Source: Candidatus Saccharimonadota bacterium
Lineage (GTDB): Bacteria > Patescibacteriota > Saccharimonadia > Saccharimonadales > Saccharimonadaceae
Direction of reading: 5' to 3'
Length of the DNA: 64,000 bases
NCBI GenBank assembly: GCA_017556795.1
Contig: JAFYLZ010000004.1
Location: 62,001 to 126,000, forward strand
How positions within the stretch are numbered: the first letter of the stretch is position 1; the number at the start of each line of letters is the position of its first letter. The translations under genes and the position numbers were made by a program. Below, piece after piece: positions 2,704 to 46,185 of this stretch. The notes beneath the pieces were generated by a model, which was given only the letters and a program-made list of their open reading frames with translations, made no database searches and had not been told where the DNA came from.

Positions 2704-2710
2704 GGTTTTA

Positions 2711-2716
2711 ATTATA
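2711..2716 (-). promoter_or_regulatory. -10 box of the MurF-like operon (leaderless)
   Basis: TATAAT preceded by TGC on the minus strand, ending 7 nt before the ATG at 2703. The predicted transcript therefore begins at or next to the start codon. It abuts the hairpin that terminates rpsJ. Confidence 0.7.
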
Positions 2717-2722
2717 GCACAC

Positions 2723-2804
2723 AAACATCAAAAATGCCCTTTCGAGGACCGTAAGCTTGGCCGAACGGCCTTGAGTGTGTCCGAGAAAGGGCGTTTTGAT
2801 GTTT
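2723..2804 (-). terminator. long compound hairpin downstream of rpsJ
   Basis: Arms 2723-2743 and 2785-2804 pair over 19 bp with one small internal mismatch. Within the loop a second stem (GGAC/GTCC) and a GGCC-GTTC-GGCC hairpin can form. On the minus strand the descending arm contains a T5 run. It probably ends rpsJ transcription, but it is much larger than the other terminators in the window and runs into the next promoter, so a small structured RNA is also possible. Confidence 0.6.
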
Positions 2805-2817
2805 TGTGATGTTCTAA

Positions 2818-3168
2818 TTACATCTTGATTTCGGCATCAACACCGGCAGGAAGCGAGAGGTTTTGGAGGCTCTCGATAGTCTTTGGGGTGGCGTTGAGGA
2901 TGTCGATCAAACGTTTGTGGACTTTCATTTCGAAAGCTTCACCACCGGTCTTGTAGACGTGTGGGGATTTCACAACGGTGAAAGTTGAACGCTTGGTTGG
3001 TAGAGGCACTGGGCCAGATACCTGGGCACCGGTACGGATAGCGGTGTCGATGATTTGTTTTGCGCTCTGGTCGATGACGCGGTGGTCATAGGCTTTGAGG
3101 CGGATGCGAATTTTAAGTCCTTCGCTTTTGGCTGCAGTTTTTGCAGTAGTTTTCTTGGCTTCTGCCAT
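2818..3168 (-). CDS. rpsJ: 30S ribosomal protein uS10
   Basis: A 116-residue S10. After a Lys/Ala-rich N-terminal extension of about 17 residues the core reads [20 protein letters not shown], followed by [14 protein letters not shown] and the conserved SPHVYK segment, all typical of uS10, which sits in the 30S head and also acts as NusE in antitermination. It is not followed by rplC/rplD as in the usual S10 operon but by a hairpin and a MurF-like gene. A Shine-Dalgarno AAGGAATTC precedes the ATG. The leader of about 120 nt carries two copies of AAGTAT-C-ATCT-like sequence (near 3203 and 3236). Confidence 0.97.
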
Positions 3169-3341
3169 GAATTCCTTCCTCTCTATAACCTCAGATGAAT
3201 ACTTAGATGATTCGTCGATGAGTTTTTAGAGATAGATACTTAATGTTAATATGTTTCATAACTATATACCATTTTGTTAAAAAAATCAATAGGGTAGCCC
3301 TCTAAGCGGTATAGTATAATATAGATATGAGAAGGAGGTCT

Positions 3342-4304
3342 ATGAAAAAGTCGATTTTTATCTTGGCGCTTTTTGCTATGACAATGATTGCGGCGCCAGC
3401 ATATGCGGTGGAATGTAAGGAGGGTGCGGGTGGTATTTCCCTGTCACCAGCTTCGGAAGACTTTAGTTTTGAGGCCGGGGACGTGCACGAATCAACTATT
3501 AAAATCAAAAACATGAATGCGAGTGACACGTCAAACTTAAAAGTTTACGCGGCGCCATACTCGGTGGACGAAAACAGCACGAAGGATTTTACGACTAACA
3601 AACCACGCACGCAGATTAGCCGCTGGATTGAATTTGAAGGTCCGGATGGTGAATATGCGCAGGAGGCGATTTTTGAAGTGGGGCCTTGCGACGAGCGAGC
3701 CGTTAATTATCGTGTCGTGGTGCCAGATAGCATTCCGGATGGTGGGCAATATGCAGTGATTTTCGTTGAAAACACCGGGAGCGGCAGCGATGCTGGCATC
3801 AAAACCGTATCGCGCGCCGGTATGCTGGTTTATGGCCGCGCAAGCGGTGGTGAGACTATCGAACAAGCTGAGATTTTAGACATCCATGCTGGAACTAGTG
3901 ACGAGGCTAAAGATAAAGATGGCCAACCACTTGGTAAGACTGTGGTGTCGGTAGGTGGCGAGGTCAAAAATACCGGCAATGTAGATATTGCCGTGACGGG
4001 TGATTTTAAGGTGACGAACGTCTTTGGGCAAGAGCTTTATCATAATACGGCATACACTTCGGTTCTGCCGGACGCAACGATGAAAATTACGGATGACTGG
4101 GCGGATACTTCGATGATTGGCCTATTTATGGTGACCTATTCCCTTTCTGCGCCGGGCGTTGAAACTAGAGAGGTGACGCAGCTAGTATTTATTTGCCCAT
4201 TGCCAGTATTAATCGTAATGGTCTTGTTCTTGATTGTGGTGATTGTCGGCATTATCTCAATTCAGAAGAAACGCCGCGAACGTAAAGCGCGCTACGGATT
4301 CTAA
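3342..4304 (+). CDS. DUF916-like (WxL-interacting-protein-like) surface protein with C-terminal membrane anchor
   Basis: Sec signal peptide (MKKSIFILALFAM..PAYA), an extracellular region of about 255 residues and one C-terminal transmembrane helix followed by a basic tail (KKRRERKARYGF). The ectodomain follows the DUF916 pattern: ISLSPAS start, an acidic strand, an IKIKNMN strand, a Tyr-rich strand, a SRWIEFEG segment and a VPDSIPDGGQYAVIF segment. It is a paralogue of the protein at 42680-43582. I prefer the ATG at 3342 because AAGGAGGT lies just upstream. However, TATAAT at 3315-3320 also puts an in-frame ATG at 3327 in leaderless position, adding five residues (MRRRS). It sits alone between rpsJ and tuf on the opposite strand. 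Confidence 0.8.
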   Translation: MKKSIFILALFAMTMIAAPAYAVECKEGAGGISLSPASEDFSFEAGDVHESTIKIKNMNASDTSNLKVYAAPYSVDENSTKDFTTNKPRTQISRWIEFEGPDGEYAQEAIFEVGPCDERAVNYRVVVPDSIPDGGQYAVIFVENTGSGSDAGIKTVSRAGMLVYGRASGGETIEQAEILDIHAGTSDEAKDKDGQPLGKTVVSVGGEVKNTGNVDIAVTGDFKVTNVFGQELYHNTAYTSVLPDATMKITDDWADTSMIGLFMVTYSLSAPGVETREVTQLVFICPLPVLIVMVLFLIVVIVGIISIQKKRRERKARYGF

Positions 4305-4356: not shown

Positions 4357-5541
4357 TTATTTGATAACCTTGGTGATAACACCAGAACCAACGGTCTTGC
4401 CACCTTCGCGGATAGCGAAGCGGTCGTTGTTGTTCATAGCGACTGGAGCAAGAAGTTTGACGTTGAAGGTAACTTGGTCACCAGGCATGACGATTTCTTT
4501 GTCAGCTGGAAGTTCGACTTCACCGGTAACATCCGTAGTACGGAAGTAGAATTGTGGCTTGTAACCCTTTGAGAATGGGGTGTGGCGGCCGCCTTCTTCT
4601 TTCTTCAAGATGTAAACTTGTGCTTCGAATTCGGTGTGTGGGGTGATGGTGCCTGGGGCAGCGATCACTTGGCCACGCTCGATTTGTTCGCGTTCGATAC
4701 CACGGAGGAGAAGACCAGCGTTATCGCCAGCTTGACCTTGGTCGAGAGTCTTGTGGAAGGCTTCGATACCGGTAACGACAGATTTTTGAGTTTCTTTGAG
4801 ACCGACGATTTCAACTTCGTCATTCAATTTGACAACACCTTGCTCGATACGACCGGTAGCAACGGTACCACGGCCTTTGATTGAGAAGACGTCTTCGATT
4901 GGCATGAGGAATGGTTTGTCGAGATCGTGTTCTGGGATATCAAAGTACTCATCCATAGCAGTAACGAGTTCCATGATAGCATCTTCGGCTTCTTTGTCGC
5001 CTTCGAGAGCCTTGGTTGCAGAACCTTTGATGATTGGAGCGTTGTCACCATCGAAACCATATTTGTTAAGAAGGTCACGAACATCCATTTCAACGAGTTC
5101 GACGAGTTCTGGATCAGCGAGGTCCATCTTGTTGAGGAAGACGATGATCTTTGGAACGTTCACCTGGTGGGCGAGAAGGACGTGCTCACGGGTCTGTGGA
5201 AGTGGACCATCGTTAGCAGCAACCACGAGGATTGCACCATCGACCTGAGCGGCACCGGTAATCATGTTTTTAATGTAGTCAGCGTGGCCCGGCATATCGA
5301 CGTGGGCGTAGTGACGTTTTTCAGATTCATACTCTTGGTGAGAAGTAGCGATGGTGATACCACGAGCTTTTTCTTCTGGAGCGTTATCGATCTGATCGTA
5401 AGCAACTGCTTTGTTAACTTCTGAAGGAAGTCTTTTTGCGAGGACGTTAGTAATCGCAGCGGTTAAAGTGGTTTTACCATGGTCGACGTGACCCATGGTG
5501 CCGACGTTGATGTGCGGCTTGGAACGGTCAAAATTTGCCAT
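4357..5541 (-). CDS. tuf: elongation factor Tu
   Basis: A full-length 394-residue EF-Tu delivering aminoacyl-tRNA to the ribosome. The G1 motif GHVDHGKT is at 17-24, followed by DMPGHADY (G3; Met replaces the usual Cys of DCPGHADY), NKMD (G4) and SATKALEGD (G5), then domains 2 and 3 ending in [11 protein letters not shown]. The start is supported by AAGGAG 5 nt upstream. The promoter is TTTACA-17-TAAAAT (5636-5641, 5613-5618), giving a leader of about 65 nt with an 8-bp stem-loop. The gene stands apart from fusA and rpsLG, which lie elsewhere in the window. Confidence 0.98.
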
Positions 5542-5569
5542 TCATTCTCCTTTTATATTATTTATTACG

Positions 5570-5641
5570 TTTGGAGCGCTAATAAAAACCAGCTCCAAAA
5601 CTCTACGGTATTATTTTAGACTATTTTTGGAAGATTGTAAA
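5570..5641 (-). promoter_or_regulatory. tuf promoter and leader stem-loop
   Basis: Minus-strand -35 TTTACA (5636-5641), 17-nt spacer, -10 TAAAAT (5613-5618). In the leader, TTTGGAGC and GCTCCAAA (5570-5577 and 5592-5599) form an 8-bp stem with a 14-nt loop. No known riboswitch fits. Confidence 0.6.
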
Positions 5642-5695
5642 GGGTTTAAGGCTGTTAATATTATGCAATATTTTTGACGTAAAGTAAAGCCCTTA

Positions 5696-5756
5696 TTGTA
5701 ATTTGGGGTAAAGTGTGCTACAATAAAAACAGGAGGAGCTCTCAAAAAGAGCTCCT
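5696..5756 (+). promoter_or_regulatory. promoter and 5' hairpin of the Pro/Thr-rich protein gene
   Basis: -35 TTGTAA (5696-5701), 17-nt spacer, -10 TACAAT (5719-5724). Starting about 10 nt after the -10, AGGAGCTCT and AGAGCTCCT form a perfect 9-bp stem with loop CAAAA at the predicted 5' end of the mRNA. Confidence 0.65.
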
Positions 5757-5784
5757 TACTATATATCGAGAGGGGGGTGCACCT

Positions 5785-6576
5785 ATGAGAAAAGCACCTA
5801 GAAAGAGCAAGAAGGAAAGACGGCGTCGCCAGATTGCGATTGCTGTGCCGAGCGCTATTCTGTTTTTGACTATAGTCTTGGTGATGGTCGCTTGCATTAG
5901 TAGCTCAAAGAAGGCGCCTGCGGAAAGTGTTCCCTCGTCTTCGTCTGAGATAACGATTGTCACGACCACTACAGAACCGACAACTCAGCCGACAACAGAA
6001 TCAACGACGGAGCCGACGCCGACACCTGTGCCGACTAACACTCCGACACCGGAACCTACGCCGACGCCTGTGCCGACCGACACTCCGACTCCGGAGCCGA
6101 CGCCGACACCTGTGCCGACTAACACTCCGACACCGGAGCCGACCAAGTCGACGAAGCCAACTAAGGCTCCGACCGAAACGACTCCGAAGCCGACTGATCC
6201 ACCGCCGGAAACTACGCCCGAGCCGCCGCCGGAGACTACGCCGGAACCGACTCAGCCGAAACCCAGCAATCCGCCCGGAAGAGATTTCGATGCCGAATAC
6301 AATTCAGCGGTCTCTCGCCTTCGCGAACTAGGTTATACTATCACTTCTGAAAGCAAGAAGAGTACTAGTTATAGAATTAAATTTAAGAATGCGACTGGTA
6401 CGTATAATGGCACGATTAGTGTTAGTTTTAATCGAGGCGAGGAAGAGTGGGAAATGGCTTACGTTCCAGTAGATAAGAATGATCCAAGCGCTACGTATAT
6501 ATATTGTGATATCAACAAAAATCCTGTCACGATGATAGACAAGCTTGATCCCGCCTGGATGAATTATTCCGGCTAA
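5785..6576 (+). CDS. membrane-anchored protein with Pro/Thr-rich stalk and C-terminal globular domain, unknown function
   Basis: Start chosen at 5785, after a purine-rich GAGAGGGGGG, rather than the upstream ATG at 5713, which overlaps the -10 box. The protein (263 residues) has a strongly basic N-terminus (KSKKERRRRQ), one transmembrane segment with a Cys at its end (VMVACIS, possibly lipidated), a long Pro/Thr stalk of about 110 residues that includes three 14-residue repeats, and a C-terminal domain of about 90 residues. That domain begins DFDAEYNSAVSRLRELGYTI and is rich in Tyr and Ser. The layout is that of a cell-surface protein holding a small domain away from the membrane. I do not recognise the domain. 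Confidence 0.7.
   Translation: MRKAPRKSKKERRRRQIAIAVPSAILFLTIVLVMVACISSSKKAPAESVPSSSSEITIVTTTTEPTTQPTTESTTEPTPTPVPTNTPTPEPTPTPVPTDTPTPEPTPTPVPTNTPTPEPTKSTKPTKAPTETTPKPTDPPPETTPEPPPETTPEPTQPKPSNPPGRDFDAEYNSAVSRLRELGYTITSESKKSTSYRIKFKNATGTYNGTISVSFNRGEEEWEMAYVPVDKNDPSATYIYCDINKNPVTMIDKLDPAWMNYSG
6013..6138 (+). repeat. three tandem 42-bp repeats coding for a Pro/Thr stalk
   Basis: Copies at 6013-6054, 6055-6096 and 6097-6138, each coding for PTPTPVPT(N/D)TPTPE. Copies 1 and 3 differ by a single base, while the middle copy differs more. Flanking sequence continues the same low-complexity theme. Confidence 0.9.
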
Positions 6577-6596
6577 AGTCTGTAAGGCCTTTCTAG

Positions 6597-6629
6597 AAAG
6601 CGTCGTTTGGTAAAACGGCGCTTTTTTTT
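6597..6629 (+). terminator. terminator of the Pro/Thr-rich protein gene
   Basis: AAAGCG-CGTTT / AAACG-CGCTTT stem followed by a run of T. It lies immediately before the -35 of the adhesin promoter. Confidence 0.85.
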
Positions 6630-6630
6630 C

Positions 6631-6700
6631 TTGACTTTTTATTGCGTTTATGTATATAATAGAGATACAAAGGTCATATTTTAAAAACAAAAAGGTCGTA
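6631..6700 (+). promoter_or_regulatory. adhesin promoter with AAGGTCATA leader element
   Basis: -35 TTGACT (6631-6636), -10 TATAAT (6655-6660). AAAGGTCATA occupies 6669-6678, beginning 8 nt after the -10. A second, related AAAAGGTCGTA sits at 6690-6700, just before the ATG. The first element is shared with the leaders of three other surface-protein genes. Confidence 0.65.
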
Positions 6701-6702
6701 AA

Positions 6703-9700
6703 ATGATTTTGCAGACAAAAAAGCAGTTTTTGAGAAAAGCATTTTTTGCCTTTTTGTTGATCAGCGGACTTATTGCTGTTGTTCCGGGCATTGTAAATAG
6801 AAACAATGAAGACACTTCGGCCATTTCTCATACTGGCGATGAGGTGAGAATCTTTTATAATCCAAATGACAAAATTTATTATGGCGAATATGCTGATCAG
6901 GAAGGCAATCGTGGTACAACTCACTTCTTTGACGTTATTACTGAGAATAGTGGCACCTATGATGCGTATTGCGCTAACCCGAGCCTAAAGCCTCTTGGCG
7001 GGAAATATTTAGTTCTGCGCTTAGGTGATGATTCTGAAAAATTCAAATTGATGAAAATGGCCATTTTCGCTGGTACTGGCGGTGGCGTCAACCCTAGTAC
7101 TACTGTCGCTGCTGAAGCCAATAATCTTCTCAACAGACTCTTTGCTGGCACCGGCCTAAGCAATGATGACCGCACGCATTACGCATATATCCATGCTTTA
7201 TTGGGTGCTATTTATGCAAATGATTATACTGGGCTCAATGGTCACAGGGCAATTGTAGATGGCATGATTGCGAAATTGCGCAACGAGATGAGTTCCGCTA
7301 CGGATGCTTACGTGATGGCCCAAGCATACAGCCTTTATAGGGTTAACAGAGATCAGCCGGTCGAATTCCCGGCTGGCTACAACGTTGATAACTATGATCC
7401 GGATGAATTCCAAGACATTGTTTGGATTGAAAGCCCTGAATCCGGCGGTTTTAATATCGAGAAAAAAGATAAAGGCACCAGCGGCGATCCGCAGGGTAAT
7501 GGTAACTTCGCTGGTATTCAGTTTGAGGTGCGTGCAGTTGGTAGGATTTACCGCAAAGATGGTACTTTCTTCAACGACAACGATATTGTGGCTACTGGTA
7601 CTACCGACGCTCAGGGCAAGGTTTCGTTCTCTGATTTGCCGCTTGGTACATACAAAGTGGTCGAGTCTGCTGGCAACGACTATTATGATGTCGCTTTGCC
7701 GCAAACTAAAACGATTTACTATGAAGGCCATGTTGATAATTTGACGTTTTACGATGAAATTAAAAAAGGCTCCATTACTGTCGAAAAAGTTGATGCCGAC
7801 AGCCATGACTGTAGATCGCTCGGTTCAGCTAGCCTAACAAGCGTCACCTTTAGCATCGTCAACAGATCTGCCCATTCGGTGATTTACGGTGGCAGCGAGA
7901 TTCCAGTTGGTAGTCAGCTCACTACTGGTACGATCAGTGCCGGCCGATGCAACATTGCTTTTAATAACTTACCGTATGGTACTTACGAAATTATCGAAAC
8001 TGCCGTTGGTACTGGCTACAGCAAAACCGGTCCGCAGACTGTCACTATTCCAAGGGACAACAATGCCAATATTACGGTTACAATGGCCAACCAGGTTTAT
8101 CGTGGCAATGTCAAATTCAAGAAAGTCGATAAAAATGACAATAATTCAGCAATGGCCAATGTGGCGTTCAGCATTACCTCTAACACTACTGGGGAAAGCC
8201 ACATTGTCGTGACCGACAGTAATGGTATGGTCAATACTGCAAGCATTGCTCACGATAGAAATACGAATAAATATGACACCATAAACTTTACTGACGTTAA
8301 CGCTCCAAGGAGTTATACATATCATAATGATTGGGGTACTTGGTTCTATGGTAACGCTAGCGGACTCGGCAACATTAATAACAGCCTTGGTGCTCTGCCG
8401 TATGATGACTATACGATCAAAGAGCTTCTTTGTACGACTAACGAATTCTGTTACGATGCTAACACCTGGTCTATGCAGTTCTCGATTAGCAGTAATGGTC
8501 AGATGGTTGATCTTGGCAACGTTGCCGGCACCACCAACGTCCAGAACGACTGTGTCCACCACGCCATTTCAACCACGGCAACCGATCCGGTCGACGGCGA
8601 CAAATATATTATGGTTGGTGAAGACGTAACCGTGCACGATCGCGTGGCTTACCACGCAATGCGCGGTAAGAGCTATACGATTCGCGGCGCTCTCTATGAT
8701 AGGGATTCTGGCGCGCAGCTAGGCGTCACCCAGACTGATAGCTTCACAATTCCTACTAACGGCAGCGAAGACGGTTACAGAGATCTTGAGTTTACCTTTA
8801 ACTCTACAGAATACGCTGGTCATAGCATTGTGGTCTACGAAGAATTGATTTATGATGGCCGCGTCGTCGCCGAACACAAAGAACGCACCGACGATAAGCA
8901 GACTGTCTACGTAATTGATTTTGGTACGACCGCGGTTGATAAAGCCGATGAGGATAAATACGTCGTAGCTAGGGGCGAAGTTCAGGTTCAGGATACAATC
9001 GATTACTGCTTGATTGCTGGCCAAACCTTTACTTTTGTGGGCAATCTGTACGATGTAACTGCCGGCAGCATTATTCCTAATGTGACCTCGAGCGCCACTG
9101 TTACTCCGGACGCAACCAATAATTGTAGCTCCGTAACTATCGACTTCACGCTTGATTCTACTGGTCTTGCTGGCCATACGATTGTGGTCTACGAGAAGCT
9201 TTATCACGATAACGTCGAGATTATGCCCCACGAAGATTCTACTGACGAGGCCCAAACGGTGTTCTTCATCGATTTTGGTACGACCGCAGTTGATGATGCT
9301 GATGGCGATAAATATGTTATCAACGCAGAAGACATGACGATTGAAGATACGATTAATTACTGCTTGGTCGCCGGCCAGAGTTTCGAGTTCGTTGCTCACC
9401 TTTACGATAAAACGGTTGGTAAATTGTTGGTAAACAGCAACGGCGACATCATTGAATATTCGCTTGAAATTACTCCAGCTACAGCTTGTGGTGCGGCCGT
9501 GATTGACCTTGATTTCAATGCCAAAGGTCTCGAAGGTCATGATATCGTAGTGTTCGAGAGGCTTTACCACGAAGATGATCTGATTATGACCCACGAAGAT
9601 GAGGAAGATGAAGACCAGACTGTACGCATCATTGGTTTCGGTACGACTGCTATCGACCAAGAAGATCGCGACAAATATGTGATTGATGGCGATATGGTGA

Positions 9701-10509
9701 CGATTCGCGACCGTATCAAGTACTGCTTGGTCGCTGGCAAGACCTTCACTGTTGACGCTTATCTAGTAGATAAGGCTACGGAAAAACCAATTGAGGGCGG
9801 CAAGGACGAAATCGTCTCTAGAACCTACACATTTGTTCCTCAAACGGATTGCGGTTCATTTATCGCTACTTTCAAAGTCAATGCCTCTAAGCTAGCTGGA
9901 CACGACCTCGTGGCATTCGAAAGAGTCTTAGACAATGGCGTCGTCGTCTTAACCCACGAAGACATTGAAGACGAAAACGAGACTGTACGCGTCATCAGCC
10001 TGCAAACCTTTGCAACCAGCAATCAGGATGAGCTTGACGAGCTTGATGAGGATAGCGAAATTGTCATTACTGATCTTGTAAAATATTGTCTCAAAGCCGG
10101 TAGCGAATTCACCTTTGTTGGCAAGTTGTTCGACAAGAATTCTGGCCAGCAGCTCGTGATTAACGATAAGCCAATCGAGCAAAGTTACACCTTCACCCCA
10201 GAAGAAGATTGTGGCGAGTTTGAGTTAGTCTACACCTTCCCTGCTAAGGGCATGGCCAAGAAAGAATTCGTTATTCTGGAAGAACTTTACGATGACTTTG
10301 GCCGCCGCATCTTGCTCCGCGAGGACCTCGACAACGAAGATGAGACCGTTCGCTTGCCTGATACCGGTTTCATGGTTGAGACTGACGGTGGTGCCGAAGG
10401 CAGCAGCAACCCAGCAATGATTGCGCTACTAGGCGTATTGGCGACGGCAACATTCGTGATTGTGCGCGGTTTTGCTAAAACTGTAGTAGGCGCAAAAAGA
10501 GCATTTTAA
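6703..10509 (+). CDS. giant LPXTG adhesin: thioester domain, CnaB domains, five VaFE repeats
   Basis: A 1268-residue surface protein. Signal peptide/membrane helix at about 10-30. An N-terminal thioester-type domain (about 45-240) has Cys90 (YCANPS) and Gln207 (AQAYSLY, the TQXA-like position), expected to form a Cys-Gln thioester that can bind host amines. Then come three CnaB/SpaA-like domains (about 247-355, 356-466, 468-600) with Lys (EKKD, EKVD, KKVD) and Glu (VVES, IIET, IKEL) suited to isopeptide bonds. Five repeats of about 120 residues (starting near 615, 739, 857, 978 and 1099) have the VaFE / T-Q ester pattern: Thr in TTA-D-D-DKYV and Gln or Glu before TV at the end. LPDTGF at 1218-1223, a hydrophobic helix and a basic tail form the sortase signal. 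Sortase B at 23106-24071 is the only candidate enzyme in the window. Likely a host-attachment fibre. Confidence 0.85.
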   Translation: MILQTKKQFLRKAFFAFLLISGLIAVVPGIVNRNNEDTSAISHTGDEVRIFYNPNDKIYYGEYADQEGNRGTTHFFDVITENSGTYDAYCANPSLKPLGGKYLVLRLGDDSEKFKLMKMAIFAGTGGGVNPSTTVAAEANNLLNRLFAGTGLSNDDRTHYAYIHALLGAIYANDYTGLNGHRAIVDGMIAKLRNEMSSATDAYVMAQAYSLYRVNRDQPVEFPAGYNVDNYDPDEFQDIVWIESPESGGFNIEKKDKGTSGDPQGNGNFAGIQFEVRAVGRIYRKDGTFFNDNDIVATGTTDAQGKVSFSDLPLGTYKVVESAGNDYYDVALPQTKTIYYEGHVDNLTFYDEIKKGSITVEKVDADSHDCRSLGSASLTSVTFSIVNRSAHSVIYGGSEIPVGSQLTTGTISAGRCNIAFNNLPYGTYEIIETAVGTGYSKTGPQTVTIPRDNNANITVTMANQVYRGNVKFKKVDKNDNNSAMANVAFSITSNTTGESHIVVTDSNGMVNTASIAHDRNTNKYDTINFTDVNAPRSYTYHNDWGTWFYGNASGLGNINNSLGALPYDDYTIKELLCTTNEFCYDANTWSMQFSISSNGQMVDLGNVAGTTNVQNDCVHHAISTTATDPVDGDKYIMVGEDVTVHDRVAYHAMRGKSYTIRGALYDRDSGAQLGVTQTDSFTIPTNGSEDGYRDLEFTFNSTEYAGHSIVVYEELIYDGRVVAEHKERTDDKQTVYVIDFGTTAVDKADEDKYVVARGEVQVQDTIDYCLIAGQTFTFVGNLYDVTAGSIIPNVTSSATVTPDATNNCSSVTIDFTLDSTGLAGHTIVVYEKLYHDNVEIMPHEDSTDEAQTVFFIDFGTTAVDDADGDKYVINAEDMTIEDTINYCLVAGQSFEFVAHLYDKTVGKLLVNSNGDIIEYSLEITPATACGAAVIDLDFNAKGLEGHDIVVFERLYHEDDLIMTHEDEEDEDQTVRIIGFGTTAIDQEDRDKYVIDGDMVTIRDRIKYCLVAGKTFTVDAYLVDKATEKPIEGGKDEIVSRTYTFVPQTDCGSFIATFKVNASKLAGHDLVAFERVLDNGVVVLTHEDIEDENETVRVISLQTFATSNQDELDELDEDSEIVITDLVKYCLKAGSEFTFVGKLFDKNSGQQLVINDKPIEQSYTFTPEEDCGEFELVYTFPAKGMAKKEFVILEELYDDFGRRILLREDLDNEDETVRLPDTGFMVETDGGAEGSSNPAMIALLGVLATATFVIVRGFAKTVVGAKRAF

Positions 10510-23105: not shown

Positions 23106-24071
23106 TTATTTCTCAACTAATTTAATTAATTTAGCGTGCAAGACGGCACGGTCGTTGGTGCCGATGCAGGTTGACAAAGTAAGGATGCGGTCTTTTTCCG
23201 TGATGTTAGTATTGAAGTCGAAAGCGCTACGATCTTTGACCATGTTGGCGAATTCTAAGAAATGAGTATCATTATTAAAAGTGGTTGTAATATAGTCGTT
23301 GGTTTTCGGAATGCGATAAACGCTAAAAACACGCCAGAGCGAACTGTTCTTTTCTGTTGTAATTTTTACAACATGATTATCTGGGTTACTTTGCCATTCT
23401 TCGGATAAGACATTTTGCAAAGAGCCAAACATTGAGCCGTCGACGCGGCCATGGGCATAGATGATTTGGTTACGGTCGGAAAGGGTTGCTGTGTTGCGGT
23501 AATCAAGGAATACCCAGCCAGCATCGGACCAGTGCCCGTCAAAAGTGTGGGTTAAGTAAAAGTCGTTATTGTTGGTTTGAACAAACGGATAGTTGATGTT
23601 GGTGCCAGGAACATAAATCCAGCCACGAGTGTTCTGGTTAGTTTCTTTGAGGTCATCCAAATCAGCATCAATAAGATTGAATGCGAGATAGCGGTAATCA
23701 CTTGGCGAAAGCTCGATCGAATCATCGACCTTGTTAACGTTGGTATTTTCATCAATCGTAGTAATGGTGGTTTGGTCTTGCAGTTTGGCAATTGTTTCGT
23801 TGGTGATGTCGGATTCGGCCTGCCAGCGAATGATTTTATAAGCGCTAAAAAGAATTGCGAAGATTAGCAGTGCCGTAGTTCCAGCGTAAAAGAGGCTTTT
23901 AACGACGACTTTCGGGTCACTTTTGATATTGAAATCGTTGGTTTTCTTTTTGGTTTTTGTGAGACCGAGAAAGCCGCGCGGAGCTTGCCGCGCGACTTTT
24001 TTATCTGGCTTATACGATTTAACGTTTTGCAAGGTAGCGCCTATAAGCGAAGATGGCGGACGAAGCCACAA
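23106..24071 (-). CDS. class B sortase
   Basis: Transpeptidase that attaches surface proteins to the wall. A single N-terminal membrane helix lies at about 57-80. The catalytic site is His207 (IIYAHGR), Cys302 (TLSTC) and Arg308, with TLSTC and the GWIYVPGTNINYPFVQ segment pointing to class B. The listed ATG at 24071 lies inside the upstream surface-protein gene (53-bp overlap); a TTG at 24032 would reduce the overlap to 14 bp and may be the real start. It is convergent with femX with only 2 bp between stops. It probably acts on the sortase-signal proteins in this window. Confidence 0.9.
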   Translation of the reverse strand: MWLRPPSSLIGATLQNVKSYKPDKKVARQAPRGFLGLTKTKKKTNDFNIKSDPKVVVKSLFYAGTTALLIFAILFSAYKIIRWQAESDITNETIAKLQDQTTITTIDENTNVNKVDDSIELSPSDYRYLAFNLIDADLDDLKETNQNTRGWIYVPGTNINYPFVQTNNNDFYLTHTFDGHWSDAGWVFLDYRNTATLSDRNQIIYAHGRVDGSMFGSLQNVLSEEWQSNPDNHVVKITTEKNSSLWRVFSVYRIPKTNDYITTTFNNDTHFLEFANMVKDRSAFDFNTNITEKDRILTLSTCIGTNDRAVLHAKLIKLVEK

Positions 24072-24744: not shown

Positions 24745-27495
24745 ATGAGTAAGAAAAAGAGTGAAGTTATTTTGCCGGCTAAAAAGCCTAAAGAAGAGGC
24801 CAAAAAGCCGAAAAAGTCTCTTAAAGAGACAATCAAACCTAAGAAAAAGATGAATTTATACTCAAATTTGAGTTACAAGAAGAAGGCTCGCAAAGAGGCA
24901 GCCGAGCGTAGGCGTGCCGAAGAGCTAGCCAAGTTACCAAAAGAACCGTGGAAACGTTTCTTTGCAAGGCTTTCGCCAAAACGCTTCTTTAAGTGGTGGT
25001 TTTCTTGGCGTGGTCAAAAAGCTATTTTGAAATTCTTTGCCGCCTGTATCTTACTCTTCATTATCTTCATCGGCGGTCTCTTCCTCTACTACAAGAAAGA
25101 TTTGCAAGAAATTAAGCTCAACGAGATGCAGATTTCTGAGACGGTTAATACTTATCTCGATCGTAACGGCAAGGTACTCTGGAAGGATACCGGTAGTGAA
25201 GATTATCGTCTCGTGGTCGACGGTTCCGAGATTAGCGAATATATGCGTCAAGCAACCGTGGCAATCGAGGATAAAAACTTCTATAGCCACAGTGGTGTAG
25301 ACTTTAAGGCCTTGGTGCGCGCTACGTTCTCTACCCTGTTCGGACATCAGGTCCAGGGTGGTTCTACTCTTACTCAACAGCTCATTAAACAAGTTTACTT
25401 CTCTGACGAAGCATCTAGCGCAGACCGTGGTGGTCTTGCCCGTAAAATTAAGGAGTTGATCCTGGCAATCGAGCTTGAGCGTATGTATTCCAAGGAAGAA
25501 ATCTTGGTTATGTACCTCAACCAGTCGCCATACGGTGGTCGCCGTAACGGTGTGGAATCTGCTGCACAGACTTATTTCGGCAAATCGGCTTCTGATTTGA
25601 CTTTGGCCGAAGCGGCTTTGCTCGCTGCGATTCCAAACAACCCAGGCGTCTATAATCCATACAATGAATACGGCAATGAAGCTTTGATCGAGCGTCAACA
25701 CAAGACGTTGGATGACATGGTGGAGATGGGCTACATTACGGCTGAAGAGGCCGAAGAAGCTAAGGCTGTGCCAATCCTCGACACCATTAAGCCAGAATCC
25801 AGCCAATATTCCGACATGCTTGCTCCTCACTTTGTGCTCGAAGTCAAATCTCAGCTCGAAGAGAAGTATGGTATCTCGACGATGCGTGCTGGTGGTTGGA
25901 CGATTACGACTACCCTCGATTATGACTTGCAAGAGATTGCCGAAGAGACGCTTGAAGATGCAAGGCAATGGCAATATCTGGCCGGTGGTGATAACTATGC
26001 TATGACCTCAGTTGATGTTGAAACCAGCCAGGTGCTTGCTATGATTGGTTCGGTCGACTTCGAAGAAGAAGGCTATGGTGAGTTGAACACGGCTACACAG
26101 CTTCTCGAACCAGGTTCTTCGATTAAGCCTTTGCTCGACTACACGCCGCTATTTATGGAACGCGAGGGCAAAAACTATGGCCCTGGTACGATCTTGAGAG
26201 ATGAAAATATCGATTCACTCTATTGTAATGGTTACACTGGTGGCAGCTGTCGCTTGCGTAACGCGTCTGTGAGATTCTATGGCGATGTGCCAATTCGTCA
26301 ATCGCTTGGTAGCTCGCTTAATATTCCGGCCGTTAAGGCTCTCTACATTAATGGTATCGACAATTCTCTAGACATCCTGCATCAACTTGGTGACGTTTCG
26401 TATTGTGCCTACGGTGAGAACTCAGGCCTTTCAATCGCAATCGGTTCGGGCTGTCGTGTGAGGATGGTTGAGCACGTTAACGCGTATGCTTCCCTCGCTC
26501 GTGGTGGCGCCTATAAAGATTTGGCTTACGTGCTAGAAGTTAAAAACTCTTCCGGTGACGTGATTGAGAAATGGGAAGATAAACCAGCCAAGCAGGTGGT
26601 TGACCCACAAGTTGCTTACATGATTTCGGATATCTTGAGTGATCCAACCGCTCGTCGCTTGATGGGCTGGACTGGTTACGAATTCGGTTTCGATATTCCT
26701 GGTGTTTGGACAGCTTGTAAGACTGGTACGACGACTACCGCAGTTAGCTCAACAGCAAAGGACTCTTGGCTCGTGAACTATTCTACAGCTATGGCAACCG
26801 CCGTCTGGCATGGTAACCACGATGGTTCTGGTATGTATAGCTCCGATTCTAAGGCTATTCGTGAATGGATGGGTAATTACACCCAAAGGGCTCACCAAGA
26901 GGTCTTGGCTGAAAATGGTAAATGGAGTGAAGGCGATGAGCCGGAACGTCCATCCGGTATCAAGACTGCTACCGTAAACGGCAAGAGCGATATTTGGCCA
27001 AGCTGGTACAACAACGAAAAGAGCTCTGGTAGCACCAAAGAAACTTTGACTTTCAACCGCTACAACAAATTGCTCGCAACCGAATGTACTCGTGACGATT
27101 TCAAAATCGAGATTGGTGCCACTAAGTCTATCGATGAAGCCACCAAGAAAGAAACTTGGGTACTTGATGACGATTCTTATGATCGTGAAACCAACGATAC
27201 GTGTGACTATGTACCACCAACGGTAACGCTAAGTCACGACGATACGCATTTGATTGCAAACGTTAGCCGTGGCAGTAACCAGATTTCTGGTTATACCCTA
27301 TACATTAACGGCCAAGAATACGGCAGCGTGTCAGTCGACAACGCAAGCGGTGTGGTTTCTGGATATACCTTGAATGGTACTGAAACTTCTGCCAGCTTGA
27401 CGGTTTCCGATACTGCTGGCTACTACGCAACAGCTGAGACTACTTTGACGCCGAAGAATTCTTCTTCTGATAAGCAGCCTGGCGACGGCGAATAA
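24745..27495 (+). CDS. bifunctional penicillin-binding protein 1A
   Basis: A 916-residue class A PBP that polymerises and cross-links peptidoglycan. A long Lys-rich cytoplasmic tail (about 1-90) precedes one transmembrane helix (about 93-116). The GT51 domain has AIEDKNFYSHSGVD with Glu175, GGSTLTQQLIKQ and a further RKIKELILAIELE motif. The transpeptidase domain has Ser458-x-x-Lys461 (EPGSSIKPL), Ser524-x-Asn526 and KTGT at 659-662. A C-terminal beta domain of about 90 residues (VPPTVTLSHDDTHLIANVS) resembles Fn3/Ig modules. TATAAT (24732-24737) ends 7 nt before the ATG. The last 56 bp overlap the convergent PIN gene. Confidence 0.93.
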   Translation: MSKKKSEVILPAKKPKEEAKKPKKSLKETIKPKKKMNLYSNLSYKKKARKEAAERRRAEELAKLPKEPWKRFFARLSPKRFFKWWFSWRGQKAILKFFAACILLFIIFIGGLFLYYKKDLQEIKLNEMQISETVNTYLDRNGKVLWKDTGSEDYRLVVDGSEISEYMRQATVAIEDKNFYSHSGVDFKALVRATFSTLFGHQVQGGSTLTQQLIKQVYFSDEASSADRGGLARKIKELILAIELERMYSKEEILVMYLNQSPYGGRRNGVESAAQTYFGKSASDLTLAEAALLAAIPNNPGVYNPYNEYGNEALIERQHKTLDDMVEMGYITAEEAEEAKAVPILDTIKPESSQYSDMLAPHFVLEVKSQLEEKYGISTMRAGGWTITTTLDYDLQEIAEETLEDARQWQYLAGGDNYAMTSVDVETSQVLAMIGSVDFEEEGYGELNTATQLLEPGSSIKPLLDYTPLFMEREGKNYGPGTILRDENIDSLYCNGYTGGSCRLRNASVRFYGDVPIRQSLGSSLNIPAVKALYINGIDNSLDILHQLGDVSYCAYGENSGLSIAIGSGCRVRMVEHVNAYASLARGGAYKDLAYVLEVKNSSGDVIEKWEDKPAKQVVDPQVAYMISDILSDPTARRLMGWTGYEFGFDIPGVWTACKTGTTTTAVSSTAKDSWLVNYSTAMATAVWHGNHDGSGMYSSDSKAIREWMGNYTQRAHQEVLAENGKWSEGDEPERPSGIKTATVNGKSDIWPSWYNNEKSSGSTKETLTFNRYNKLLATECTRDDFKIEIGATKSIDEATKKETWVLDDDSYDRETNDTCDYVPPTVTLSHDDTHLIANVSRGSNQISGYTLYINGQEYGSVSVDNASGVVSGYTLNGTETSASLTVSDTAGYYATAETTLTPKNSSSDKQPGDGE

Positions 27496-41644: not shown

Positions 41645-41647
41645 TTA

Positions 41648-41676
41648 ATAGCCCCATCAAAGGGGCTATTTTTTTA
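41648..41676 (+). terminator. terminator of bL31 gene
   Basis: ATAGCCCC, loop ATCAA, GGGGCTAT, T7. Confidence 0.92.
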
Positions 41677-41738: not shown

Positions 41739-42590
41739 TTAACGACGAGAGCGTTTGATGATTAGCACGATTAGTGCGATGACGGCAAAGCCGGCAGCGA
41801 CAAGCGAAACGACTAGGTAATCAGTCTTTGAGACGTTAAGATGTTCGGAGAAAGAGCCGGTATCTGGGACGATTGGGGCTTTTTCCTGCTCGTAGGCGTA
41901 GTTGATGACTTTTGGTTCGCCAAGGGCGTTACCATCTTCGTCGTAGCTAGTGATGATGATTTTGTAATCACCATCAGCAACATCGTTGTCTTCGAATGGA
42001 AGGGTGACGTCATCATCGGTATCATCGGCTGGGACTTCGATGTCATCGATAACTTTTTCGCCGGTTTCTGGGTCAACGACGGAAATGACGACTTTTTTAA
42101 CGTTTGGATCCGTGTCGATGTCGATTTTTGGATCACCGTTGTCTGCTGGATCGACAGCTTCGGCAGTGGCTGGGACAAGGTTGAATGTGACGGACTTGAG
42201 ATCTTCGTTGCCATCGGCAGTAGCTCTAATAGTGATAGTGACTGGACCATAATAGTTAGGTTCAGGAATGGTTATTTTGCGGGTGAGCGTACCGCTTTCG
42301 GTTGTTGGTTCGAAGATTCCACCTGCACCATGTTCGCCACAGGCAACACTGTACACGAATTCTTCGGTTTCGGCATAATCAAGTCCAAGATCAATACCAT
42401 TATCATTAATCAACTCTGCGCCATCGGCTGGTTCGGTGATTTCGACAGCTGGCTGCTTAGGGTTGGTGACATTTACCGTGATAGTTGTTGTGCCGCCCTC
42501 GGCATTAGCGGCGGGCGTAAAGTAGGCGGCAACCGTCAATGCGGCCACGATAATCAAACCTAAAATGCCCCAGAGTTTCTTGTTTTTCAT
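41739..42590 (-). CDS. sortase-anchored Ig-like surface protein (VPDTG)
   Basis: 283 residues: signal peptide (MKNKKLWGILGLIIVAALTVAAY), beta-rich Ig-like modules (TTITVNVTNPKQPAVEITEP; DPNVKKVVISVVDPETGEKV; DGDYKIIITSYDEDGNALGE) rich in Asp, then VPDTGSFSEH, a membrane helix and KRSRR. The C-terminus fits a sortase signal with Val for Leu. Third gene in order after a small secreted protein and a DUF916-like protein, as in Firmicutes WxL (Csc) clusters, where the fourth component is a small LPXTG protein. It has its own promoter (TTGACA-17-TATATT) and a leader of about 55 nt ending AAGGT-ATG. Confidence 0.78.
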   Translation of the reverse strand: MKNKKLWGILGLIIVAALTVAAYFTPAANAEGGTTTITVNVTNPKQPAVEITEPADGAELINDNGIDLGLDYAETEEFVYSVACGEHGAGGIFEPTTESGTLTRKITIPEPNYYGPVTITIRATADGNEDLKSVTFNLVPATAEAVDPADNGDPKIDIDTDPNVKKVVISVVDPETGEKVIDDIEVPADDTDDDVTLPFEDNDVADGDYKIIITSYDEDGNALGEPKVINYAYEQEKAPIVPDTGSFSEHLNVSKTDYLVVSLVAAGFAVIALIVLIIKRSRR

Positions 42591-42646
42591 ACCTTGTCTT
42601 CGTTTATTTTATATTTTTTATTTTATATCTTATTTTCTTAATAATC

Positions 42647-42675
42647 AATATATATGTTTATGCTTAAATTGTCAA
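42647..42675 (-). promoter_or_regulatory. promoter of the VPDTG surface protein gene
   Basis: -35 TTGACA (42670-42675), 17 nt, -10 TATATT (42647-42652), followed by an A/T-only leader of about 50 nt. Confidence 0.65.
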
Positions 42676-42679
42676 CCCC

Positions 42680-43582
42680 TTAAATATCGCGGCGTTTTTT
42701 GATGGTAAAGACGATTTTGATAATAATTAGGGCGAGAACGAGCGCGACGATGGCCATAAACCAGATTGGAACGACAAACACGGTCTGTTCTACGATCGAA
42801 GTTTGGCCTAGATATTCGATGGTTTGGGTGACTTTAAAGATACCGATAGCTGGTACGTCGATCGAGTTAGCGTCGTAGCGTTTGGTGTCTGGCATGATGA
42901 TATGAGTGAGTGGCTCGTCGGCGTTCGAGAAGATAGTTTCGCCGGTAAAGAAGGATTTAACTTCGAAAGTGTAGGTGGCTTTATTGTGCAAATCACCGGT
43001 GTTTTCGACTAATGATTCAACAATGACTGGGCCGCTAGTGTAGAATTGCGGGATTGAGTTTTTGGTGACTTCGCCGGAATCTTTGGCATTACCGGTGATG
43101 GTGGCGTAGACAATAGAGGCTACGCCGCTGGTAATAGTGAAGTTGGCGGTGCCGCCTTCGGAAATCGTATCAACCGAGGCCACAATGGCGAATTGTTGGC
43201 TGCCGGCGAGGGCTTTTTCTGGGACGACGATGGTGTAGTCGACGACTTCGTCACTGTTTGATTCGAGAGAGCCGGAATCTTTGCTGAGGACAACCCAGTC
43301 GGCGATGTTATTATATTTGGTCTTTTCTTCGTAGTTTAGGTCGTAGTTTTCGCTGGAGACACTGAGTGGTTTAGCGGCGATTTGATAAGAGAAAGCCTCT
43401 TTGCCAATGTTGGCAACGGTGATTTTTCCCTGGTAGGTCTGGCCCTGAGCTAGTTTAATCTCTGAGCTGACCGGAGAAATGGAAATCTCGACATCGTTCT
43501 GCTCGGTTGCGGAAGCGTTATTTTTGATAAAACCCGTAGCAAAACAGGCAATAAGGATAGCAATTAAAACTCTTTTCTTCAT
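42680..43582 (-). CDS. DUF916-like surface protein with C-terminal membrane anchor
   Basis: 300 residues: signal peptide (MKKRVLIAILIACFATGF), ectodomain, C-terminal transmembrane helix and KKRRDI tail. The ectodomain has the DUF916 pattern: ISISPVSSEIKLAQGQTYQG, ITVANIGKEAFSYQI, ADWVVLSKDSGSLES, DYTIVVPEKALAGSQQFAIV. The overall layout equals that of Firmicutes WxL-interacting proteins, and it is a paralogue of the gene at 3342. TAGAAT (43589-43594) ends 6 nt before the ATG, so the transcript is probably leaderless, starting right after the terminator of the preceding gene. Confidence 0.78.
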   Translation of the reverse strand: MKKRVLIAILIACFATGFIKNNASATEQNDVEISISPVSSEIKLAQGQTYQGKITVANIGKEAFSYQIAAKPLSVSSENYDLNYEEKTKYNNIADWVVLSKDSGSLESNSDEVVDYTIVVPEKALAGSQQFAIVASVDTISEGGTANFTITSGVASIVYATITGNAKDSGEVTKNSIPQFYTSGPVIVESLVENTGDLHNKATYTFEVKSFFTGETIFSNADEPLTHIIMPDTKRYDANSIDVPAIGIFKVTQTIEYLGQTSIVEQTVFVVPIWFMAIVALVLALIIIKIVFTIKKRRDI

Positions 43583-43597
43583 AAAATAATTCTAGCA

Positions 43598-43629
43598 TAA
43601 AAAATATACCCCTGCGGGTATATTTTTTG
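43598..43629. terminator. terminator of the small secreted protein gene
   Basis: AAAAAATATACCC, loop, GGGTATATTTTTT: symmetric stem with T6 on the minus strand, running into the next gene's promoter. Confidence 0.85.
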
Positions 43630-43638
43630 GTTGCAATT

Positions 43639-44148
43639 TTATTCTGTTGCGGCAGCGGTGAGGGTAATAGTACCAGTGTAGGTACCATTTGGCGTGGTAG
43701 ATTCGGTACCAACGGTCACATCAAAGCTCTTAGATTCGTTAATAGCCTGAGTGTTGCCAGCGGCAGCGGCGTAAGTCCAGAGAAGCTGATCAGTGGAAGA
43801 TGGAGCGATTGGGTTGTTACCATCATTCATAATAGACCAACCTTCGGTGCCAGCGGCGGCAGAGGTGTTTGGTGCGATGGTATTGTTAGCGGAGGCAAGG
43901 TTGCCACCCTTTACTGATACGGTGAAACCTTTGGTGGTATTGGTTCTAACGTTGACAGAGGTGCTGCCAGTACCGGCGTTGCCAGGTACGATGCTGCTAA
44001 TATTAACGTTAGTAGCGGTGATCGAAATTGATGCTCCGACGCTTGCGGTAATATTTGCCGTGGTTGGGTTGGCTGCAGATGCGGCCAAAGGCAACACCGA
44101 CAAACCAGCGACAGCGCCAGCAGCAATAAATGCTTTTACTTTCTTCAT
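43639..44148 (-). CDS. small secreted WxL-like surface protein
   Basis: 169 residues: signal peptide (MKKVKAFIAAGAVAGLSVLP..SAA) and a beta-rich mature part full of Thr, Asn and Ala. The strand pattern ITASVGASISITATNVNISS, NVRTNTTKGFTVSVKG, WSIMNDGNN and a final NGTYTGTITLTAAATE is that of WxL-type or similar wall-bound beta-sandwich proteins, but no strict Trp-x-Leu motif is visible (LLWTYA is nearest). No membrane anchor. Next to the DUF916-like gene it fills the place of the WxL protein in a Csc-type cluster. The leader carries AAAGGTCATA directly before the start. Confidence 0.7.
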   Translation of the reverse strand: MKKVKAFIAAGAVAGLSVLPLAASAANPTTANITASVGASISITATNVNISSIVPGNAGTGSTSVNVRTNTTKGFTVSVKGGNLASANNTIAPNTSAAAGTEGWSIMNDGNNPIAPSSTDQLLWTYAAAAGNTQAINESKSFDVTVGTESTTPNGTYTGTITLTAAATE

Positions 44149-44150
44149 GG

Positions 44151-44228
44151 TATGACCTTTCTTAGTTTTTAAATGTTTGTTTTAATCTAATTCTGCTTTT
44201 ATTATACATAAGCTTGATGAATTGTCAA
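44151..44228 (-). promoter_or_regulatory. promoter and AAGGTCATA element of the small secreted protein gene
   Basis: -35 TTGACA (44223-44228), 16 nt, -10 TATAAT (44201-44206). AAAGGTCATA at 44151-44160 lies 2 nt before the ATG, so here the element may double as a weak ribosome-binding site. Confidence 0.65.
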
Positions 44229-44460: not shown

Positions 44461-46185
44461 TTATGGGGTGCGATTTTTGGTGGTTTTTTCAGAAGCCCAA
44501 GTTTCGACATTGACGAAGCGGTCCAAAGCGGAGACCATATGGCTCTCGTCAGAGAAGGTGCGGACGTTTTTATTATAGAAGTAGGAGATATTGGTGCGGT
44601 ATAAGCCGATAGCCGGAACGTCTTCGACCCAGTATTTCAGGAAGGTTTCGTATTTGGCGAGGCGGAGCGACTCATCGGTGGTTTCGCGGGCGCCGAGGAT
44701 TAAGTCGTCGATCAGGGAGTTCTTGTAGTTAGACAGGTTGAGACCGGACTGTGAAGCTTGAGATGAGTGATAATAGGCAAATAGATCTGGGTCGGCGCCG
44801 AGGTCGATTTCGTAAATTAGAATGTCATAGTTGCGCTTAGTGACGATTGAACCGATAAAATCTTGGCCTTCTGAGTAGACGGTAACATCGACATTGAGGC
44901 CGACGTTGCGTAGGTTTTCGGCGAAGGTTTCGGCCACAGCTGGCAAATAGCCAGAGTTGACGGTGGCGAGTGAAAGAGTAACGCCACTGAAGTCTGATTC
45001 GACAGTGGACCTGGCAGCGTCTGCATTATGACCGATTGGAGCCGGATAATCAGATAGCTTAATCTGCGCATCGGAGAGTGGGTAGTCGAGCGCCGGCTTG
45101 TTGTCGGTGAGGGCGCGAATTTCGGCGAGGTCGACGGCGCGCTTGATGGCTTGGCGCAAAGATTTATTCTTGAGTGGCTCTTTGGTCGTATTAAGGAAGG
45201 CATAGACGCCAGAGCTGATGCTGGTTTGTTTTTCGTAAATAGACGCAGAAGTCACAAGGTTTTGGTCGGCTGGCGAAAGTGCGGCGGTGGCGGTGATTTT
45301 GCCAGCGTTGAGATCCTTAACCAAGTCTTCTTTGGTTTTGTAAGTGTGAATAGCGAAGCTATTGAGTAATGGTTTTCCCTTATAGTAGTGTGGGTTGGCA
45401 GAAAGATAAATGATTTTCTCGCCTGCGGATGGGGTTTGGGTAGCGTTAAAAGTAAAGGCGCCCGAAGTGACAGGCGAGGTGGAGAAAGAGTGCTCGATAA
45501 GGGTTTTTGGATCGGTGTCGCCAAGGATGTGCTTTGGTAAAATCGGGAAAGTAAGGGCCGAGTCAAAATCGGCGTAGGCTGACGGCAAATAAAAGACGAT
45601 TGAACCTTCATCTTCTGAAACGCGTACGTTGGAGAGATTGGTGTCGTAAATTGAGCTTACGGCGGAGTTTTTGATGAGGGAGGCCGTAAATAGGACGTCT
45701 TCGTTGGTGATTGGTTCCCCGTCCGACCATTTAAGGTCGTCGCGAAGTTTGATGGTCCAAGTGCGGCCGTCGTCAGAAGCGTGGATGGATTTGGCGAGGC
45801 CTGGTGCGATATGGCCAGAATAATCAACTGCGGACAAGGTTGCGAACATTAAACGGCTAAGGGCTTTTTCACTATCGGTTACGGCGAAAAGTGGGTTCAA
45901 AGAGTTGACCTCGCCGATTGTTCCCTCCATGTAGCTGCCGCCGCTCACGAATGAGTTGGTGGAATAGAAATTTCCGAGCCAGACAGACTGCGTGATGGCA
46001 AGCAAAATGAGTGCCGAAATCAAAAGGCACCACTCAAGAATCAATAATTTAATATTCTTAATATGAGAAAGGCGGCCAAAAAGATTGGTCTTAATGTGCT
46101 CTTTTCCCTCTTGCTCGGCAACCTTACTAATGCGCGAAAAACGCTTGATAAACTTTTGCCCACGCTTTTTGACGGAATTTTTCAT
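44461..46185 (-). CDS. family 5 (peptide/nickel) ABC substrate-binding protein with N-terminal membrane anchor
   Basis: 574 residues. A basic cytoplasmic stretch of about 48 residues precedes one membrane helix (LLILEWCLLISALILLAITQ), then an SBP_bac_5 domain: GTIGEVNSLNPLFAVTDSEK, LRDDLKWSDGEPITNEDVLF (the family signature), KPLLNSFAIHTYKTKEDLV and FLKYWVEDVPAIGLY. Most relatives are lipoproteins; this one has a signal anchor and no lipobox. No permease or ATPase genes are nearby. It lies 1 bp after secG, so it depends on the secG promoter. Peptide capture for import is the natural guess. Confidence 0.88.
   Translation of the reverse strand: MKNSVKKRGQKFIKRFSRISKVAEQEGKEHIKTNLFGRLSHIKNIKLLILEWCLLISALILLAITQSVWLGNFYSTNSFVSGGSYMEGTIGEVNSLNPLFAVTDSEKALSRLMFATLSAVDYSGHIAPGLAKSIHASDDGRTWTIKLRDDLKWSDGEPITNEDVLFTASLIKNSAVSSIYDTNLSNVRVSEDEGSIVFYLPSAYADFDSALTFPILPKHILGDTDPKTLIEHSFSTSPVTSGAFTFNATQTPSAGEKIIYLSANPHYYKGKPLLNSFAIHTYKTKEDLVKDLNAGKITATAALSPADQNLVTSASIYEKQTSISSGVYAFLNTTKEPLKNKSLRQAIKRAVDLAEIRALTDNKPALDYPLSDAQIKLSDYPAPIGHNADAARSTVESDFSGVTLSLATVNSGYLPAVAETFAENLRNVGLNVDVTVYSEGQDFIGSIVTKRNYDILIYEIDLGADPDLFAYYHSSQASQSGLNLSNYKNSLIDDLILGARETTDESLRLAKYETFLKYWVEDVPAIGLYRTNISYFYNKNVRTFSDESHMVSALDRFVNVETWASEKTTKNRTP

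Follow-up and report, generated by a model that had tools for sequence, protein, structure and literature searches.

Surface display in which a beta strand of one protein is slotted into another is known from chaperone-usher pili and from WxL clusters, and has been little noticed in the phylum Patescibacteria. WxL clusters often, though not always, include a gene for a protein with a sortase signal, and large WxL proteins carry the WxL domain at their C-terminus. For the candidate phyla radiation (CPR), a Pam pilus is already modelled by NCBI (pilin NF058581, PamT NF058579, PamR NF058578), and the parts of the locus described below are recognisable. The WxLIP component of WxL clusters has been described almost only from Firmicutes, with a conserved NQIDKxxxYFDLK signature, and AlphaFold work on WxLIP indicated that a strand of a hairpin becomes ordered on entering WxL (PMC10599100). 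Here we describe a locus in 64 kb of DNA from a Candidatus Saccharimonadota bacterium (the window; positions 62001-126000 of contig 4 in a genome of 674 kb and five contigs), to which coordinates refer unless another locus is named. It encodes a small secreted protein, a middle protein, here termed A, and a surface protein with a VPDTG sortase signal; a paralogue of A, termed B, is located elsewhere in the window. A sequence-only reading had taken the three adjacent genes for a trio of the WxL/DUF916/LPXTG type. This stands for the middle gene, which encodes a remote WxLIP homologue, and for the sortase-signal protein; the small protein is a pilin-like domain and not a WxL domain by sequence, and the conserved unit comprises four genes, to which the window is an exception.

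The genes are open from ATG starts, those of the trio all on the minus strand, and the signal peptides, the C-terminal transmembrane helix of the middle protein and the VPDTG motif followed by a transmembrane helix and a basic tail are all present as read from the letters. The paralogue, too, is present, and it is indeed DUF916-like.

43639..44148, minus strand: small secreted pilin-like protein, 169 amino acids (signal peptide, AlphaFold, profile comparison)
42680..43582, minus strand: A, WxLIP-like protein (DUF916, DUF3324, transmembrane helix), 300 amino acids, proposed strand-donating chaperone/anchor (AlphaFold, Foldseek, profiles)
41739..42590, minus strand: immunoglobulin (Ig)-like VPDTG surface protein with LNVSKTDYL linker, transmembrane helix and basic tail, 283 amino acids (sequence features, conserved C-terminus)
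3342..4304, plus strand: B-type WxLIP-like paralogue (27% identity to A; GGAGG before the ATG at 3342)

The three genes and the paralogue are real genes and not chance open reading frames, because homologues of the middle gene occur in 34 of 35 genus mates, of the VPDTG gene in 29 of 35 and of the small gene, by profile, in seven of the eight genus genomes searched. Beyond the genus, 13 of 24 genomes that represent other families of the order contain a WxLIP-like gene, and none of 24 genomes contains a VPDTG homologue. One genus mate (G001, 98% complete) yielded none of the three proteins, which were either lost or never present there; the system is therefore dispensable.

Direct Pfam and NCBIfam scans of the window proteins gave sub-threshold matches only, and for this reason the conclusions on A and on the small protein are drawn from family profiles and structures. 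The AlphaFold model of A (mean predicted local distance difference test score (pLDDT) 93, predicted template modelling score 0.81) consists of two Ig-like domains in WxLIP order, followed by a C-terminal transmembrane helix (residues 273-299). Its best Foldseek matches are the Enterococcus faecium WxLIPs 9i25_C (E 4.5e-13), from an entry whose title gives a complex of WxLIP with a long WxL protein, and 9i1y_A (E 7.8e-13). With VIA, the WxLIP match reaches Z 14.2 over 225 residues, and PapD-type pilus chaperones come next at Z 11-12. At the level of structure, the DUF916 assignment of the sequence-only reading is thus borne out.

Sequence profiles point in the same direction. An A-family profile searched against all PDB sequences returned the two E. 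faecium WxLIP chains alone (E 1.7e-5). Compared by hhalign with real WxLIPs, the A profile gave 95.6% (E 1.2e-8), covering the DUF916 domain, and a profile of order relatives, i.e., members of other saccharibacterial families, gave 97.2% (E 3e-11) over 210 columns, comprising DUF916 and most of DUF3324; the WxLIP and WxL reference proteins were taken from Enterococcus and Lactococcus plasmids. No Pfam family is matched by more members of the A family than PF06030 (25 of 43), and its curated cut-off is passed by two relatives of the same order. The NQIDKxxxYFDLK signature, which is near-complete in the real plasmid WxLIPs, was found neither near the N-terminus of the window protein nor in the family consensus. 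Due to this and to a different angle between the two domains, A is to be regarded as a remote WxLIP homologue and not as a canonical member, on the basis of structure, profile-sequence and profile-profile comparison. A hairpin at residues about 138-152, the counterpart of the WxLIP hairpin predicted to enter WxL, is the sole low-confidence stretch of the model between the N-terminal 30 residues and the transmembrane helix. In profile comparison A and B match with 100%, and B retains a short, basic, strongly conserved tail in the cytoplasm (RKRKERxxR).

The small protein contains no W-x-L, in accordance with the earlier remark that a strict WxL motif is lacking. Its signal peptide extends to about residue 25-26, the mature protein starts with ANITASV, in which hydrophobic residues alternate, and an Ig-like pilin fold follows (AlphaFold pLDDT 88.5). 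The structure matches are chaperone-usher pilins and subunits, namely CS20, FimF, FimG, and CsuA/B (best Foldseek E 1.6e-4; VIA Z 7-8.6), with modest scores that a plant hexosaminidase domain equals. Against the NCBIfam Pam pilin NF058581 the protein scores E 5e-5 and 23.3 bits (cut-off 55), and a scan of the small protein alone gave E 0.002 against PamT NF058579. The family profile, compared by hhalign with true Pam pilins, reached 97.1% (E 5e-11, 112 columns); it was built on mature sequences, a version including the signal peptides having drifted onto the VPDTG protein. Mature residue 26 falls opposite pilin residue 1 in two of the structural alignments, and the N-terminal stretch of the small protein therefore sits in the place of the pilin donor strand. 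Among 64 homologues, the hydrophobic/polar alternation of this stretch, which as tested also takes in the first strand of the domain, scored 2.43, compared to 1.62 in shuffled sequences (standard deviation 0.06; 0 of 400 as high). The signal is clear with the better rule for the cleavage site and absent with a poorer one.

The same domain recurs in much larger proteins. Nine sites in the window genome are matched by the small-protein profile, eight of which fall in open reading frames of about 540-1070 amino acids, and up to 30 sites were counted in a genus mate. Five of the eight large genes lie within about 13 kb. Their positions in the same genome, outside the window, are as follows.

L174 2699-15802 (minus strand), L175 462-3674, L176 4083-5981, L177 4396-7068: eight large secreted pilin-domain proteins

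In the large proteins read, a signal peptide is followed by the pilin-like domain and then by DUF285 repeats (window genome; seen in the three of the eight that were scanned) or by Fibrobacter-type domains (relatives). Neither a C-terminal transmembrane helix nor a sortase motif was found in them.

Gene order was compared in 41 loci, which were found in a scan of named genomes with an alignment of B paralogues. All 41 relatives belong to Candidatus Saccharibacteria, many of them from goat or sheep gut, which agrees with the saccharibacterial source presumed earlier from the sequence. The VPxTG gene comes directly after B wherever a downstream gene exists (40 of 40 loci). The gene before B is A in 34 of 41 loci, and the gene before A is a small one in 28 of 31. 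Because of these counts, the conserved unit is the four-gene order small - A - B - VPxTG, so that the proposed neighbourhood is indeed kept in relatives; several small - A pairs per locus are common. Locus L069 contains tandem runs of three near-identical small pilin-like genes (5349-7232 and 1662-3587), which may supply major subunits or allow antigenic variation.

In the window the order is solute-binding - small - A - VPxTG - rpmE, and B adjoins tuf at a distance of about 38 kb; this arrangement is exceptional among the loci and may go back to either a rearrangement or an effect of the assembly. The same family-5 solute-binding gene is situated upstream of the cassette in 15 of the 41 relative loci; in 6 of these 15, B and VPxTG follow without an intervening A or small gene, and an rpmE homologue occurs in the fetched stretch in 6 of 6. 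In L126, L128, L131, L132, L142, and L147, whose solute-binding neighbour is closest to that of the window, B adjoins VPxTG, and the window has small - A in that place, as if exchanged.

Apart from its sorting signal, the VPDTG protein shows weak matches to Big_7 and Big_13, and the C-terminus bearing the signal is kept in relatives. A profile match of this protein to WxLIP (83%) was set aside, as it includes the transmembrane helices. Sortases are encoded in all 36 genomes searched, three of them in the window genome.

In a sample drawn from the whole phylum, 57 of 117 genomes and 52 of 105 genera carry WxLIP-like genes. Pilin-type neighbours accompany them in other families of the order too, and in the order-relative loci read the WxLIP-like gene adjoins a Pam pilin. 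Of 60 genomes, 15 have a match above the cut-off of the Pam pilin model NF058581, and none of these belongs to the genus. In the one Pam locus scanned, PamT and PamR were recognised and the WxLIP-like neighbour matched no NCBIfam model. PamR (NF058578) was detected in none of 36 genus genomes and above cut-off in 11 genomes of other families; where it is missing, the window genus carries B and the VPxTG protein. Both were considered as PamR counterparts and rejected: for B, the PamR profile probabilities against A and B amount to 1-6%, and for the VPDTG protein the value of 43% is based on only 18 columns. No usher (PF00577) was found in 20 genomes, with a positive E. coli control.

Transcription signals and further features around the locus are these.

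44201..44228, minus strand: promoter of the small gene, TTGACA-16-TATAAT, perfect sigma-70-type (12/12 match)
42647..42675, minus strand: promoter-like site of the VPDTG gene, TTGACA-17-TATATT (11/12 match)
41647..41670, listed on both strands: terminator-like hairpin separating the VPDTG gene from the convergent rpmE
44461..46185, minus strand: family-5 solute-binding protein, upstream neighbour (SBP_bac_5, E 6e-48), a landmark of the locus outside the system
23106..24071, minus strand: sortase, candidate enzyme for the VPDTG signal (PF04203, E 1.9e-10, 41 bits, cut-off 26.6)

Each of the three genes had been credited with a promoter and a terminator of its own. For the small and the VPDTG gene the promoters can be retained; for the middle gene (42680-43582) a promoter-like site was looked for and none was found. 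As to terminators, the cluster is bounded by terminator-like hairpins, and between the small and the middle gene an imperfect hairpin is visible by eye. A bifunctional penicillin-binding protein is encoded (24745-27495) not far from the sortase gene of the window. On the plus strand at 6703-10509, a surface protein of 1268 amino acids with two SpaA-type and five T-Q ester bond domains is encoded, likely a stalk or adhesin.

With a probability of roughly 0.5, we presume that the locus provides a strand-donating, membrane-anchored WxLIP-like chaperone, which would hold pilin-domain proteins at the surface without an usher, in the manner of both the WxL-WxLIP complex and a pilus chaperone with its subunit. 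The small protein would represent a pilin-type Ig-like domain. A, anchored in the membrane by its C-terminal helix, and perhaps also B, would complete this domain by lending a beta strand from the hairpin of the first Ig domain, and by this lending the small protein would be folded and held at the cell surface. Since eight large proteins share the pilin-like domain and have no C-terminal anchor of their own, A and B are possible docking sites for a whole adhesin family, whose members may then serve in attachment to other cells and in host contact. Sortase would attach the VPDTG protein to the wall, beside the B paralogue. Several points weigh against this proposal. Strand donation by A is a step that we infer. 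Ig folds are widespread, and the scores of PapD-like chaperones come close to those of WxLIP. A itself reaches 15.6 bits against PF06030 (cut-off 27.3; E 0.017), and its global superposition on WxLIP is loose (TM-score 0.38-0.44, root mean square deviation about 9), due to the different setting of the two domains. The pilin-like domain is N-terminal in the large proteins, in contrast to the C-terminal WxL domain of large WxL proteins. Finally, A and not B adjoins the VPDTG gene in the window, and the assignment of partners is therefore uncertain.

The main competing explanation, implied by the NCBI name "Pam pilus", is an usher-less pilus, in which the small proteins would polymerise by N-terminal donor-strand exchange, A would act as chaperone or platform, and the VPDTG protein would form the base in the wall. 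It draws on the profile homology to Pam pilins together with the pilin fold, on the amphipathic N-terminal stretch in donor-strand position, on the tandem near-identical small genes of some relatives (L069), which resemble major pilins, and on the perfect promoter of the small gene, which suggests high expression. A filament is here a prediction, however; in the open-access literature no paper was found that names the Pam pilus, nor one that links WxL or DUF916 with Saccharibacteria. The window organism has a single small gene, the genus lacks PamR in all genomes searched, and in the large adhesins the N-terminal domain would block extension of a chain unless these proteins are tips. On the whole we consider polymerisation into a pilus possible but rather unlikely. 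The alternative that A and B are receptors for wall or envelope stress, or scaffolds without a stable partner, with a merely regulatory reason for the co-location, deserves little credence: the strongly conserved tails of B would suit it, but these tails are short and a pilin-type gene adjoins in several families.

A genuine, highly diverged WxL cluster, in which the small protein would be a WxL domain with tryptophan replaced by phenylalanine or tyrosine and would bind peptidoglycan, appears improbable. In its favour, the neighbour A of the small protein is a WxLIP homologue, and a similar set of genes (LPXTG, WxL, WxLIP, sortase) makes up clusters in Enterococcus. Furthermore, some relatives show GWxV or GWKL at the position of the first motif and YTL at the last strand, and one relative matches PF13731 (WxL) below threshold (E 0.001) in its C-terminal half, the region of both motifs. 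Because of these relatives, a very old common origin of the WxL and the small-protein domain may still be considered. Yet a WxL origin found no support in sequence when tested against Enterococcus and Lactococcus WxL proteins: hhalign of the small-protein profile with real WxL domains gave a probability of 0.6% and aligned the last strand alone, and PF13731 has no match in the window genome and none above cut-off in 60 genomes. Similarity of the last strand to WxL is common to chaperone-usher pilins as well. The structure search gives pilins; among the matches listed there is no WxL chain, and a short WxL consensus peptide, searched against the PDB, gave nothing useful, neither of which excludes anything. 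That the proteins are unrelated Ig-like proteins brought together by chance or convergence, with the DUF916 likeness reflecting the common Ig/fn3 fold, is scarcely credible and already disfavoured. Many mid-scale fold matches, including cilia and transglutaminase chains, and weak matches of the A family to several fn3-type Pfam families would fit this assumption, but the profile search of the PDB gives WxLIP only, the WxLIP profile comparisons reach E 1e-8 to 3e-11, and the gene order is kept in tens of genomes.

Extended beyond the window, the preferred reading of A as a strand-donating chaperone leads to the tentative proposal that usher-less donor-strand assembly is widespread in Patescibacteria, WxLIP-like membrane chaperones assembling or holding proteins with a pilin domain, whether small subunits or large adhesins. 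If true, one principle of strand donation would tie the WxL clusters of Firmicutes to the chaperone-usher pili of Gram-negative bacteria, and it would supply the close-range display of adhesins that epibiont biology lacks. Studies on Saccharibacteria invoke unnamed close-range adhesins (PMC12206443; PMC10633639) by which these ultrasmall epibionts would keep hold of their hosts beyond type IV pili. For this the locus offers candidate parts, with a proposed docking mechanism, a family of adhesin-like cargo and an anchor distributed across the phylum. The locus also extends the range of WxLIP to the CPR and suggests that the WxL-WxLIP and chaperone-pilin pairs are perhaps versions of one principle.

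Compared with the described systems, A shares with the E. faecium WxLIPs (9i25, 9i1y) the two Ig-like domains and the C-terminal transmembrane helix, the profile homology, the hairpin between the last strands of domain 1, and two kinds of neighbour, one small, secreted and beta-rich, the other with a sortase signal. It differs from them by the missing NQIDKxxxYFDLK, a shorter ectodomain, the other domain angle, the A/B duplication, and a partner that is not WxL by sequence. WxL/Csc clusters encode two or more WxL-domain proteins with two WxL motifs, and none was found here; the sortase-signal protein, with VPDTG, transmembrane helix and basic tail, is common to both. With the Pam pilus the locus has a homologous pilin in common, and in order relatives a WxLIP-like protein occurs beside Pam pilins; in contrast, the genus has no PamR, the small protein of the window reaches only half the length and stays well short of the cut-off, and B and the VPxTG protein are additional. 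In case of the chaperone-usher pili (PapD/FimC/CsuC with FimA/CsuA/B), the two partners have similar folds and the N-terminal stretch lies in the same place, at the level of fold only, whereas no usher was found in the 20 genomes and the chaperone-like A is anchored in the membrane. Saccharibacteria are regarded as monoderm. In comparison to the large WxL adhesins (BspA-type regions with WxL), the domain of the large proteins is N-terminal and pilin-like, but these proteins likewise share the domain of the small partner and have no anchor of their own.

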